DNA from: Dokdonella sp.
GTDB lineage: Bacteria > Pseudomonadota > Gammaproteobacteria > Xanthomonadales > Rhodanobacteraceae
Assembly: GCA_019634795.1 (NCBI GenBank)
Contig: JAHCAR010000019.1
Span: 1-52,229, forward strand
Length of the DNA: 52,229 nucleotides
Reading direction: 5' to 3'
The stretch's first letter is position 1. Each line of letters opens with the position of its first letter. The translations under genes and the position numbers were made by a program. Under the pieces are notes generated by a model. That model was not told the DNA's origin and ran no database searches. It saw nothing but the letters and a program-made list of their open reading frames with translations. Below are positions 1,799 to 48,874 of this stretch, one piece after another.

Positions 1799-2976
1799 CC
1801 GGGCCGGTCGCGGTGGCCGCCGCGCCGCACACTGCCGAGCAGTTCGCTCGCCAAGCCAAGCCGGTGCGCGTCCTGCATTTCGTCACCGGCGGTTTTTCCG
1901 GCGGGGCAACCCAGGTGGCCATCGCCTTGACCCGCGCCTCGCTGGCCGCTGGAGGACCCGTACAACCACTGTTGGTTCTTCGCAGCAAACTCGGCATCGA
2001 CCCGGCGCGGATTGCCGGACTGCGCGAGCAGGGCATCCCGGTGGCCACCGTACCGCGATGGCCGCATTTGGCCACGATCCTGCGTCTCGCCTTGATCTGC
2101 CGATCGTTTCGTGCCGACGTGCTCATCGCCCACGGCTACAGCGAGCATCTCTGGGGGCGCTATGCGGGACTGCTCGCCGGAGTGAAGAATCTCGTCCAGG
2201 TCGAGCACAACACGCGCGAGCGCTACACGCCCTTTCGGCGGTTGCAGGCGCGCTGGCTGGCGCGACGCACGGCATGCTTCGTCGGTTGTTCGCAGGCGGT
2301 CTGCGATGCCCTGTTCAAGATGGGCCTGCCGGCCGAACGCATCATGGCGATTCCCAACGGCATCGGCCTCGAGCGGTTCTCCAGCGCGGAGATGCGACCG
2401 TTCAGCCTGCGCATTCCCGGCATCGTCATGGTCGCCCGCTTTTCCCGGCAAAAGGACCACGCCACTCTGTTGCGGGCGATCGCACTCTTGCGTGGGCGCG
2501 GACTGCGACCGCCGGTGGTTCTGGCTGGCGGAGGCAAGCGTGTCCATCGCGATGCTGCGCAGGCACTCGCCAATGAATTGGGTCTGTCCGGTCAAGTGAA
2601 TTTCATGGGCGTCTGTTCCGACGTGCCGGCTTTGCTGATGGATCACCAGATTGCCGTACTGAGCACCCACCACGAAGGAATGCCGCTGGCCTTGCTCGAA
2701 GGCATGGCTGCCGGTTGTGCGGTGGTCGGCAGCGACGTCCAGGGCGTGCGTGAAGTGATCCATCACGGTATCGATGGAATGCTGGTCGCAGCAGGCGATC
2801 CCGCGCGGCTGGCGCTCGTGCTGGAGGGGCTGCTGAGGAATCGCGCGAAGGCCAGCGCGTTGGCAGCGAGAGCCCGTGAATCGGCAATCAGGCAGAGTGG
2901 CCTGGACTTGATGAATCGGCGCTACGAAAGCCTTTGCCTGAGCCTCGCAAGTCACCATCGGGTTGGCTCGGCCTAG
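1777..2976 (+). CDS. Glycosyltransferase family 4
   Basis: A 399-residue GT-B glycosyltransferase. The N-terminal half opens with VRVLHFVTGGFSGGATQVA, the usual glycine-rich acceptor-domain loop. The C-terminal half carries MVARFSRQKDH (donor domain start), AGGGKR and HHEGMPLALLEGMAAG, the E-x7-E signature of GT4 retaining enzymes. An ATG at 1783 is an alternative start; either overlaps the GT2 gene. The frame is open further upstream to 1501 but that part lies inside GT2 and has no family similarity. The TAG stop at 2974-2976 sits in a CTAG that forms the left border of the palindromic element that follows. Together with GT2 this is a small glycan gene pair, probably for an exopolysaccharide or O-chain. 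Confidence 0.87.
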   Translation: MGMVLLVTGPVAVAAAPHTAEQFARQAKPVRVLHFVTGGFSGGATQVAIALTRASLAAGGPVQPLLVLRSKLGIDPARIAGLREQGIPVATVPRWPHLATILRLALICRSFRADVLIAHGYSEHLWGRYAGLLAGVKNLVQVEHNTRERYTPFRRLQARWLARRTACFVGCSQAVCDALFKMGLPAERIMAIPNGIGLERFSSAEMRPFSLRIPGIVMVARFSRQKDHATLLRAIALLRGRGLRPPVVLAGGGKRVHRDAAQALANELGLSGQVNFMGVCSDVPALLMDHQIAVLSTHHEGMPLALLEGMAAGCAVVGSDVQGVREVIHHGIDGMLVAAGDPARLALVLEGLLRNRAKASALAARARESAIRQSGLDLMNRRYESLCLSLASHHRVGSA

Positions 2977-3260
2977 GGAGGGTCTGATCAAGTAGCAAAG
3001 TCGTCATGGCGTTCAGAAGGTTTTCCACATGTGCTGCGTGGCGAAGTGAAGGCTGGTTGCCTTGACGAGGCGCGCGGTGCATGTGGGGAGCCTTCTGGAC
3101 GCCACCTTTTCACCATCCAATCAATCGGTTAGGCGACGCCTGCCTGCGCGCAGATCTTTGTTGCGCCGACTTGAAAGACGGCCAGTCTGTCTGCGTCGAC
3201 GCGTCGCGATCTGCACACAGGCAGGCGTCGTGACGGCTTTGCTACTTGATCAGACCCTCC
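2977..3260. mobile_element. 284-bp palindromic MITE-like element, copy A
   Basis: The element starts GGAGGGTCTGATCAAGTAGC and ends with its exact reverse complement; counting the flanking CTAG on both sides (2973-2976 and 3261-3264) the perfect inverted repeat is 28 bp. Inside are two long arms. The first pairs the region around CAGAAGG (about 3015) with CCTTCTGG (about 3125). The second pairs CGACGCCTGCCTG (about 3133) with CAGGCAGGCGTCG (about 3220) and encloses a smaller stem. There is no transposase. The ends resemble IS5 (GGAAGGTGCGAACAAGT from memory), and CTAG fits the YTAR target of IS5-family elements, so an IS5-mobilised MITE is the best reading. A homologous inverted copy lies at 30994-31277. 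Confidence 0.85.
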
Positions 3261-3512
3261 CTAGCGATCTGCAGGCCTCCCGCGCGCCCGGCCTCGTTTC
3301 GGCGGCGGATTTGCCAGTCACGTTGGGCCTGCCCGGGTTGCCAGCGGTCGAATCGGGGCACGCGCCGCGCCTCCACCCGCAAGGCGAGGGGGGAACTTCG
3401 GCTGTTCGCGCCTTCCGGCGTTGCCCGGGTTCCCGCATACATGACGCGCTGGGGCACGCTACTCTTGGTCAAGGCCCTGTCCGCAAACGGGAACTACCGA
3501 GGAGCGTCATCG

Positions 3513-30970: not shown

Positions 30971-30993
30971 GCGTCCGGCAAGAGGCTCCCGAG

Positions 30994-31277
30994 GGAGGCT
31001 CTGAACAAGTGGCACAACCGTCACGACGCCTGCCTGCGTGCAGATCGCGGCGCGCCGACGAAGACAGACTGGCCGTCTTTCGAGTCGGCGCAACAAAGAG
31101 CTGCGCGCAGGCAGGCGTCGCCCAAGCGATTGATTCAATGGAACACGGGTGGCGTCCAGAAGGTCCGCCACAGGCACCACGCGGCTGGTCAAGGCAACCA
31201 GCCTTCACGTCGCCGCACAGCACCTGTGGCGAGCCTTCTGAACGTCATGACGATTGCGCCACTTGTTCAGAGCCTCC
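30994..31277. mobile_element. 284-bp palindromic MITE-like element, copy B (inverted)
   Basis: Same length and plan as copy A at 2977-3260, but in opposite orientation. Its ends are GGAGGCTCTGAACAAGTGGC and the reverse complement. It differs from copy A at three terminal positions (G to C, T to A, A to G), each changed at both ends so that pairing is kept. Right flank is CTAG (31278-31281); left flank is CGAG (30990-30993), a one-base variant of the duplicated target. No ORF inside has protein character. Confidence 0.85.
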
Positions 31278-31281
31278 CTAG

Positions 31282-31439
31282 TGTGGTGTCCCACAAATAC
31301 CATCAAATAATTCCGGCGTCTTTCACGGCGATACTGCGTTGCTCGTCGTCGCCATAGTGCCCACTATGACTCCTCCTCGCGCCTTGTCTCGCCATGAAAT
31401 CCATCCGGAATTTCTTCGCGTTATTTGCGGGACACCACA
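31282..31439. mobile_element. 158-bp palindromic element of a second family
   Basis: Begins TGTGGTGTCCCACAAATA and ends TATTTGCGGGACACCACA, with CTAG on both sides (31278-31281 and 31440-31443). The inverted repeats extend imperfectly to about 40 bp, ending AATTCCGG / CCGGAATT. No transposase is present. It abuts copy B of the 284-bp element and shares its CTAG. It falls in the upstream part of the frame of the following glycosyltransferase, so an ATG at 31394 inside it should not be used as that gene's start. Confidence 0.75.
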
Positions 31440-31522
31440 CTAGCGGTCGCGAACGCCTGAAACATTTCTCCGGCACCCTCCTGCGGCCGCAATGTGCGGT
31501 CCGGGCGAGGGTGAGGCGTGCA

Positions 31523-40323: not shown

Positions 40324-41643
40324 GATCGCGTCTTCGTGGCGCTGCGGTGCGCTTTTGTACGTTTGTGCATCGCTTCGCGGCGCATTCCTGGAGTAGAAGC
40401 AAAGCTTTCATTCGCCTCCGGCGAGCGAGTCATCCCGCGCTTACTGCAGGAAGCGCCTTCAGGCGCGATGCTCCTTCCGCACAATTCGAAGTCCGCGCCG
40501 TCGTCCCTGCCCTTCGACAGGTTCAGGACAGGCCGGACTTTGCCCGGGCAGGGAGCCAGCGCCTTGCTCTTCGCCTGCATGGACATCGCTTCGCGGCGCA
40601 TTCTTGGAGCAGAATCGGAATCAGAAGCAGAGCTTTCACTCGCCTTCGGCGAGCGACCTACTTTCTCTTGCGTGGCCAAGAGAAAAGTAGGCAAAGAGAA
40701 GGCCACCCCAAAGCGGTGGTCTCCGGGCTCCTGCCCTGCGACTGCGCGGCAGGGCTCCGGGGGTTCGCTGACAGCACCTCCGTGTGCTGGCAGCGAACTG
40801 GGCGCGATCCCTCGCGCCCACCCTGCGGGCCTTTCCTGCGCCCAGCCGCCACCGCTTACGGGGCCCGGATAGCGCGCATCCTGCGCGCCAGAGCGAAGAG
40901 CAGGAGCCGAAGCCGAAGCCGAAGCCAGAGCCAGAGCCCCCCATCCGCCTGCGGCACCTTCCCCCGCTACGCGGGAGAAGGAAGAGAATGAGCCGCGGCC
41001 AGAGCAAGTGCGTCGAGACACCCTGAAGTTTGCCAGTGCGGGAATTTGCTTCGTCTTGGCTGCGCAGGAGGCGCAGTAATTGGGGCCCCTATGCAGTGGC
41101 GCAGTGGCGGAGGAAAAGCCCGAAGAGCCTGCCCCGGACTCGATCCGGGGGTGGCTCGCAGGGATGCGAGCCAGTTGGCTGCCAGTCCATGGATGGACTG
41201 TCAGCCAACCCCGGAGCCGCTGCGCGGAGTCGGAGGGCAGGATGCCCGGAGACCGCTGCATCGGGGTGGCCTTCTCTTGACTTCGGGCTCCTGCCCTTCG
41301 CCCTGCGGGCCGGCTTCGCCGTTCGCGCTGCTCCTGCAGCGCAGTGGTTACTTTCTCTTGGCCACGCAAGAGAAAGTGACTCGTTCGTCGAAGGCGAGTG
41401 AAAGCTCTGCTTCTGTTCTTGCTCCAAGAATGCGCCGCGAAGCGATATCCACCGAGGCGAAGGGCCAGGCCCTGGGTCCCTGCCCGCCCATGGAGGAAGG
41501 ACAGAGTTTCGAAACGTGGGAGAAGAGCATCGCGCCTGAAGTCTGTTCTGATCGGGGTCGAAGGAGCGCTCCTGCAATGAGCGCGAATGGACGCGCTCGC
41601 TGCGAACGAATGGAGGTCTCCCCCGGCGCGAACACAACGAAGA
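40324..41643. repeat. Repeat mosaic: large imperfect inverted duplication
   Basis: 1.3 kb with no supportable gene. A ~550-bp module occurs twice in inverted orientation (about 40440-41000 and 41040-41585). Both copies contain, in the same order, a REP-like half-site TTCAGGCGCGATGCT, a GGGCAGGGA block, ATCGCTTCGCGGCGCATTCT, GCAGAGCTTTCACTCGCCTT, a hairpin TTTCTCTTG...CAAGAGAAA (40662-40685 and mirror near 41351-41375) and GAGAAGGCCACCCC with GTCTCCGGGC. Extra fragments occur at 40357-40400, and a hexamer run (GAAGCC) at about 40908-40938. Similar intergenic DNA is common in Lysobacterales. Long open frames here are not conserved proteins. Confidence 0.7.
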
Positions 41644-48262: not shown

Positions 48263-48874
48263 GTCGCGATAGGCGCAGCCGCCCAGCCAAACCGGTGTTC
48301 CCTGCCACCCTGCATCGATCGTCGCGGGGCGATGCCGCAGTGTGTAGCGCCTCTCCCGCCGACGGGAGAGGGAAGAGATGGTGGTGCCCCATTTTGAAAT
48401 GCCTCTCCCGCTAGCCGGAGAGGCTGCCGACAGGCTTGTGAGGGTCGTCGGGCGGAGCGGAATCGCCAGGAGCGCAGATCAAGAGCCCCTCATCCGTTGT
48501 CCGGGCACCTGAACTCGCAGCATCCATGGCGCTCGCCCTGCGGACAGCATTCGCGGCGCAAAACGACAGTCCTGCCGCATTGGTTTCCCGCCAACGGGAG
48601 AAGGAACGAGCGGGGAGGCCGCAGTGTGATGCGCCTCTCCCGCTGGCGGGAGAGGCTGCCGACAGGCTGGTGAGGGTGGGCCTACGGAGCATCATGCAAG
48701 AACCGGCGAACCAGAAGCATCACCCTCATCCCCCGTTTGCACGCAGCCGCCCCGTGCGTCGTGAAGTTCACGATTATCCCGATCCTGCGTATCATCCACC
48801 TGGCTTGTGTGACCGGTGCAGTCCGGCGCGCGAGCACCCAGGCACGTCATCCCGACGTGATGCGGAAGGTGGTG
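48263..48874. repeat. Intergenic region with three CCTCTCCCGC hairpin repeats
   Basis: Three short hairpins lie here: GCCTCTCCCG with CGGGAGAGG at about 48349-48372, 48401-48423 and 48634-48656. The first and third share an upstream GCAGTGTG and the second and third share a downstream GCTGCCGACAGGCT and TGAGGG. They look like a dispersed REP family. No supportable CDS lies between 48263 and 48874; the regulator's promoter must be at the right end. Confidence 0.6.

Follow-up and report, generated by a model that had tools for sequence, protein, structure and literature searches.

Two copies of a palindromic element in the window

The window, by which we mean the whole 52,229-nucleotide stretch of Dokdonella sp. 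DNA analyzed here, carries two copies of a 284-bp palindromic element, A and B, in opposite orientations (Table 1). Upstream of A lies a glycosyltransferase open reading frame (positions 1501-2976), whose stop codon is the TAG (2974-2976) of the left CTAG of A. On the side of B away from its CTAG, the flank (30990-30993) reads CGAG. The second element that adjoins B (31278-31447) is about 166 bp long, with ends TGTGGTGTCCC and CTAG flanks. Its seven full copies in the genome are 99 to 100% identical and so apparently recent, and a copy also sits beside the palindromic element at locus L020 (C14:33412-33576).

Table 1. Parts of the palindromic element and its flanks in the window
Feature	Position	Strand	Remark
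Left CTAG target-site copy of A	2973-2976
Copy A, 284 bp	2977-3260	+
A outer stem, left half, including IS5-type terminal inverted repeat GGAGGGTCTGATCAAG	2977-3006	+
A arm 1 hairpin	3007-3104	+
A arm 1 tip, AAGGC-TGGTT-GCCTT	3049-3063	+	Hardly any change along internal branches in Dokdonella
A linker between arms	3105-3133	+	Fastest-evolving part; closed by a 3-bp helix
A arm 2 hairpin, apparent inverted homologue of arm 1	3134-3230	+
A arm 2 tip, GAAAGACGGCCAGTCTGTC	3173-3191	+	Hardly any change along internal branches in Dokdonella
A outer stem, right half, terminal inverted repeat	3231-3260	+
Right CTAG target-site copy of A	3261-3264
Copy B, 284 bp, inverted orientation	30994-31277	-
B outer stem, 5' half on the minus strand, end GGAGGCTCTGAACAAG	31248-31277	-
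B arm 1 hairpin	31150-31247	-
B linker	31121-31149	-
B arm 2 hairpin	31024-31120	-
B outer stem, 3' half	30994-31023	-
CTAG flank of B, common to the adjoining 166-bp element	31278-31281

As a preliminary description of the locus had it, A and B align over their full length without a gap, and their three terminal differences (columns 6, 12, and 18) are mirrored at both ends; these differences mark two subfamilies. The terminal stem was also said to be perfect in each copy, which is true of its first 20 bp. Beyond them, pair 25/260 is T.G in both copies and pair 21/264 is G.T in B. Folded as single-stranded DNA, A has an MFE of -102.3 kcal/mol (z = -13.3) and B an MFE of -109.8 kcal/mol (z = -12.3), with none of 200 shuffles folding as well in either case.

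The two copies differ at 41 of 283 columns, and 30 of these fall within stems. Using a strand-neutral structure of 117 pairs, we found nine stem pairs that had changed on both sides, compared to a random expectation of 1.87 (maximum of 7 in 20,000). Seven of the nine are Watson-Crick in both copies (6/279, 12/273, 18/267, 22/263, 24/261, 54/105, and 131/155). The preliminary description fits less well with another 12 stem pairs, which changed on one side only.

Copy number and distribution in relatives

Besides 22 near-full copies of the element, the genome that contains the window (G000) has more than eight partial copies, of which several lie at the ends of contigs. A search with the pattern of the ends gave 53 matches, while the reversed control gave none. 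When A was used as the blastn query, 9 of 60 genomes were matched, the window's own included. With a copy from Dyella as the query, matches were found in 57 of 197 genomes of the family, representing 13 of its 26 genera.

A covariance model, built from 21 sequences hand-picked for diversity, matched 99 of the 197 family genomes at E <= 1e-6, and 57 genomes in 13 genera reached 1e-45. This set of 57 and the blastn set of 57 overlap and are not identical. We counted a genome as bearing the element when its best E value was <= 1e-45 (the lowest counted was G061, at 1.3e-47), because opposite-strand second matches at the same places reach 138 to 194 bits; weaker matches to the model may be generic palindromes. 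The three-arm fold is common to other genera. A pattern of the conserved hairpin tips was found in Dokdonella immobilis, Dyella silvae, Dyella subtropica, Dyella sp. OK004, Rhodanobacter sp. B05, Mizugakiibacter sediminis, and two Lysobacterales MAGs, and 10 of the 38 matches to this pattern lay in unrelated bacteria and had no profile match.

In other families of the order, the covariance model matched 29 genomes with best E values from 2.8e-8 to 2.2e-37, of which locus L251 alone was inspected. It belongs to at least one sister group of elements, 263 to 264 bp long, with members in the same genus (L250, in G006), the same family (L253, in G030), and another family (L251, in G400). Arm 1 of these three is homologous to that of the element (alignment scores of 71 to 76.5), and their ends and arm 2 differ from it. 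A search of a plasmid collection in distant mode gave no match to A or L251.

Some copies (L019, L020, L021, L023, and the second L006 copy) have 47 to 48 bp inserted after core column 199, in the arm 2 tip region. The insertion is common to Dokdonella genomes. It also occurs in three copies of G003 and in the G005 copy, where it measures about 96 bp.

Covariation across many copies

Alignments of copies were restricted to those spanning approximately model columns 12 to 272. Our set of 70 copies is a set of 71 minus one of the two L006 copies, a set of 82 has both, and L185 (Mizugakiibacter), which resembles G010, was excluded. From 54 chosen loci, 54 matches yielded 45 distinct sequences, in which 96.5% of cells were paired in an alignment that was itself fitted to the structure. 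Changes on both sides occurred in 74 of 99 pairs and in all seven helices. Shuffles gave 45.6 such pairs, with none of 500 as high, and structures slid along the alignment gave 23 to 34.

The larger set of 82 copies was aligned with MAFFT and compared to simulations on a tree (two nulls of 25 runs). Coupling summed over the 117 pairs was 2028, against at most 262 in simulations and at most 330 in slid controls, and nine of the ten strongest couplings were pairs of the structure. Watson-Crick-to-Watson-Crick double changes numbered 98, compared to 5.5 in simulations (maximum of 10 in 40 runs). At the level of single pairs, 7 to 8 of the 117 structure pairs passed E < 0.05 in an R-scape-like test, and none was significant among all 39,060 column pairs of the 82 copies. 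The covariation foreseen from A and B is thus significant in aggregate over many copies. However, the two ends do vary independently in single copies, a case that the preliminary description had named as counting against it. Of 55 Dokdonella copies, 11 show a break in one or more of the three diagnostic pairs, and the terminal stem of 19 pairs is perfect in 28.

Covariation of this kind could arise if template switching during replication (quasi-palindrome correction) copied one arm onto the other, leaving a fold without a function. We consider this unlikely as the source of the pattern. Such a mechanism has been described for RNA genes, to judge from the available part of that report (PMC8794818). 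Among recent Dokdonella branches, there was a modest excess of compensatory double changes (11 versus 5.5 expected, P = 0.015), and, judged by eye, a one-base difference in length between subfamilies occurs at both ends together (columns 18 and 270). Template switching should also give double changes the same spectrum as single mutations, and the share of transitions is indeed alike in doubles (0.602) and singles (0.604), against 0.823 under an analytic two-hit model (P = 2e-7). However, independent hits that we simulated had a transition share of 0.68 (151 of 222), which does not differ from 0.60 (Fisher, P = 0.20), and therefore this match does not decide for or against conversion. Double changes were not significantly clustered in tracts (P = 0.105), and mismatches persist in most copies, such as G.G at 72/88 in 63 of 70. 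The causes proposed at the outset for the paired changes were selection for folding, end-to-end conversion, or replication through a hairpin. This interpretation gains partial support from the aggregate covariation and the common three-arm fold. For conversion, the excess of double changes is modest and the transition share does not decide.

The two arms and the polarity of wobble pairs

In the 45 distinct sequences, arm 1 was compared with arm 2 in reverse complement. The median z was 2.9; the true comparison scored above every one of 100 shuffled hairpins in 20 sequences and did not do so in the other 25. To judge from these alignments, the arms appear to be homologous, one inverted relative to the other. 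Across genera, the frequent wobble positions comprise 10 G.T positions, located in arm 1 or the outer stem, and four A.C positions, located in arm 2 (10:4 overall, P = 0.18). In Dokdonella, arm 2 has one strong G.T position (186/227) and one strong A.C position (173/239). Post hoc, this polarity would tentatively fit inverted-homologue arms that are each read on their own strand.

Wobble pairs also bear on whether the element works as RNA, that is, whether its transcripts fold and are selected for an RNA function or for stability at the 3' ends of genes. This we regard as distinctly unlikely. Among 71 copies (gene context from a crude prediction based on codon usage), none was inside a predicted gene, one overlapped a gene, and 17 had a predicted gene that reads into the element and stops no more than 1 base from its border. 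Persistent G.T pairs outnumber A.C pairs (659 versus 233 cells in 70 copies) when counted on the strand-neutral structure, which replaced a plus-strand fold with G.U allowed, whose counts (727 versus 164) were biased. Yet the underlying events are about equal: changes from Watson-Crick to G.T and to A.C stand at 39:36 on internal branches and at 93:77 and 35:38 on tips (totals of 167 and 151). The frequent wobbles are opposite in the two arms, so that one transcript cannot favor both, and flanking genes read into the plus strand of the element 25 times and into the minus strand 39 times. Searches of Rfam at gathering and permissive thresholds gave no match for the element. Specifically, the only match in the window at the gathering score was a tRNA elsewhere, and the best weak match in 2950-3290 scored 16.3 bits, where the gathering score is 70. 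At the outset, the element was suggested to form a three-way cruciform or an RNA. The three-arm fold recurs in other genera. For an RNA, the Rfam searches gave no family, and mutation events as a whole show no strand asymmetry and so lend no support to a single transcribed strand. A resemblance of the linker to an integron attC core, noticed by eye, was dropped because the linker varies.

Constraint along internal and tip branches

Changes on internal and tip branches were separated on a tree of 55 copies from G000 and G002, with a parsimony test that is crude for short, recombining sequences. On internal branches, 92 stem substitutions included the loss of 36 pairs, the gain of 31, and nine Watson-Crick-to-Watson-Crick changes, a net of -0.05 pairs per substitution. 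On tip branches, 428 stem substitutions included 304 losses, 57 gains, and 10 Watson-Crick-to-Watson-Crick changes, a net of -0.58 (Fisher test of pair loss, P = 1.8e-9). The contrast recurs in a wider Dokdonella-like set (-0.12 internal and -0.54 at tips) and in all 82 copies (+0.01 internal, -0.59 at Dokdonella tips, and -0.29 at other tips). In the set of 70, copies on longer branches retained less pairing (rho = -0.66).

Parts of the element differ in the same direction. Substitutions per column on internal and tip branches, respectively, were 0.39 and 1.83 in stems, 0.40 and 1.91 in the ends, 0.13 and 1.67 in hairpin tip 1, and 0.05 and 1.53 in hairpin tip 2, compared to 2.09 and 2.17 in the linker. 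This baseline comprises 23 columns and may be too high if subfamilies have exchanged sequence there. Two copies, L004 and L111, are chimeric, with ends from two different subfamilies. After removal of nine decayed or chimeric copies, the main contrasts remained in weaker form (pair loss, Fisher P = 3e-4; stems versus linker, P = 2.7e-5; tip 2, P = 1.5e-4; ends, P = 0.02), and tip 1 alone lost significance (P = 0.13).

The contrast between internal and tip branches therefore means that resident copies mutate nearly evenly, while the lineages that multiply keep their ends, their stems, and above all their hairpin tips. The data show a constraint on the two inverted hairpins at the level of the element, and what is new is that it acts on lineages that multiply and not on resident copies. 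This also bears on copying between arms. In resident copies, losses of pairs far outpace gains, which means that correction lags behind. From this net decay and from the persistent shared mismatches, we argue that correction, if it happens, is slow. Template switching would, moreover, leave the nearly frozen tip sequences unexplained.

Ends, flanks, and an IS5-family partner

IS5-family elements insert at YTAR targets. Among the 71 full copies from eight genomes, the bases on the two flanks are the same at all four positions in 22 copies, at three in 37, and at fewer in 12, so that 59 of 71 share at least three of four; YTAR stands on both sides of 24 of the 71. All of these comparisons are between the two flanks of occupied sites. 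The window's genome also has a resident insertion sequence of 1212 bp (G000:C6:19475-20686) with CTAG on both sides and perfect 18-bp inverted ends starting GGAGGGTCTGAACAAG. It encodes a 333-amino-acid IS5-family transposase (PF01609; NF033581 at 349 bits, against a cut-off of 140). The ends of the palindromic element, GGAGG[G/C]TCTGA[T/A]CAAG, are one base apart from GGAGGGTCTGAACAAG in each main subfamily.

The ends are not constant within the genus. The same body occurs with GGCAACGCTGATCAAG, GGATGCTCTGATCAAT, and other ends, left matched to right. In G007 and G003, the left end of IS5-family copies is GGCAACGCTGAATAAG, which agrees with that of the local elements at 14 of 16 bases, and their right end is GGATATGCTGAACAAG.

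Across the family, the association between the element and an IS5 transposase is weak. At E <= 1e-30, a match to the resident transposase was present in 16 of 57 element-bearing genomes and in 26 of 140 others, and it was absent from 41 of the 57, among them G002, a genome of the same genus from which 33 full copies were used. Movement by a Y1 (RAYT) transposase, as a REPIN-like hairpin doublet, is highly improbable in our judgment. Two inverted hairpins with conserved tips are what such a doublet would have, and Y1 matches are somewhat commoner in bearing genomes (42 of 57, compared to 85 of 140 others). Against this, a search at E <= 1e-3 gave no Y1 match in 15 of the 57 bearing genomes, and the element has matched ends with YTAR target copies. 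REPINs are not known to make a target duplication and are shorter than the element. The associations with IS5 and with Y1 transposases are both weak.

A MITE-like element with a conserved middle

The reading that we favor, with some confidence, is that A and B are non-autonomous copies of an IS5-type MITE with cis-acting folded arms, probably moved in trans. We read the element as an IS5-type MITE because of its ends, its flanking repeats, and the partner insertion sequence in the genome. An IS5-family DDE transposase would probably act in trans on the matched ends of 16 to 18 bp and insert the element at CTAG or YTAR sites, with the arms and tip sequences serving as parts needed in cis. Copies that lose the fold would stay put and decay, and lineages that multiply would keep it, which would account for the paired changes. 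As for the arms, our best guess is that they work in the form of folded DNA, either as hairpins on exposed single strands or as a cruciform, and that they might present their tips to a protein or bring the two ends together in transposition.

A second reading, which we put forward tentatively and consider doubtful, is that the element belongs to a distinct class of hairpin-doublet mobile elements. In such a class, the arms would be the conserved identity and would be needed in cis, and IS5-type ends would be exchangeable, drifting toward whichever transposase is available. It is suggested by L250, L251, and L253, in which this arm 1 is combined with different ends and a different arm 2.

Returning to the IS5-type MITE, the element resembles IS5-family bacterial MITEs in being short, in its matched IS5-like ends, in its CTAG or YTAR target copies, in lying outside predicted genes, and in its many copies. 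It departs from them in its inner body. This consists of two inverted and apparently homologous hairpins whose tips are conserved; it is under constraint in propagating lineages and recurs in elements with different ends. QMITE2 and MITEAba12 are likewise bacterial MITEs, and the latter has a proposed parent insertion sequence and occurs across a family, according to the accessible portion of its description (PMC6382973). As far as the accessible descriptions of these two go, covariation of inner arms and constraint at the level of propagation set our element apart. REPINs, in the available text of one report (PMC3116915), show compensatory changes; they share with the element paired inverted hairpin units and selection on the replicating unit. 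The element differs from REPINs in its target copies, its IS5-type ends, and its 284-bp length, and also in the 15 of 57 bearing genomes without a Y1 match. We found no published description of the element in a literature comparison made mostly on titles and abstract openings, with subscription journals thinly covered.

The ends of the element are of an ordinary kind, and what is unusual is its middle. A MITE is commonly regarded as a pair of ends around a dispensable interior. In this element, the inner stems are under approximately the same constraint as the ends, and the hairpin tips are under a stronger one, but this applies only along the lineages that multiply. Selection on a replicating element can thereby be told apart from the decay of resident copies within one data set. 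This makes the dependence of a DDE transposon on internal DNA hairpins testable, and it offers a natural system for separating selection on folding from template-switch correction.

Other repeats in the window

Two further repeats were observed in the window. At 40450-40685 and 41352-41548, there is a long inverted repeat in three pieces that are 70 to 92% complementary and 666 to 979 nucleotides apart, around ACTTTCTCTTGCGTGGCCAAGAGAAA; three overlapping open reading frames tested had no Pfam match. At 48354-48690, a stretch of 105 nucleotides occurs twice in direct orientation with 77% identity and is rich in CTCTCCCGC and GGGAGAGGC.
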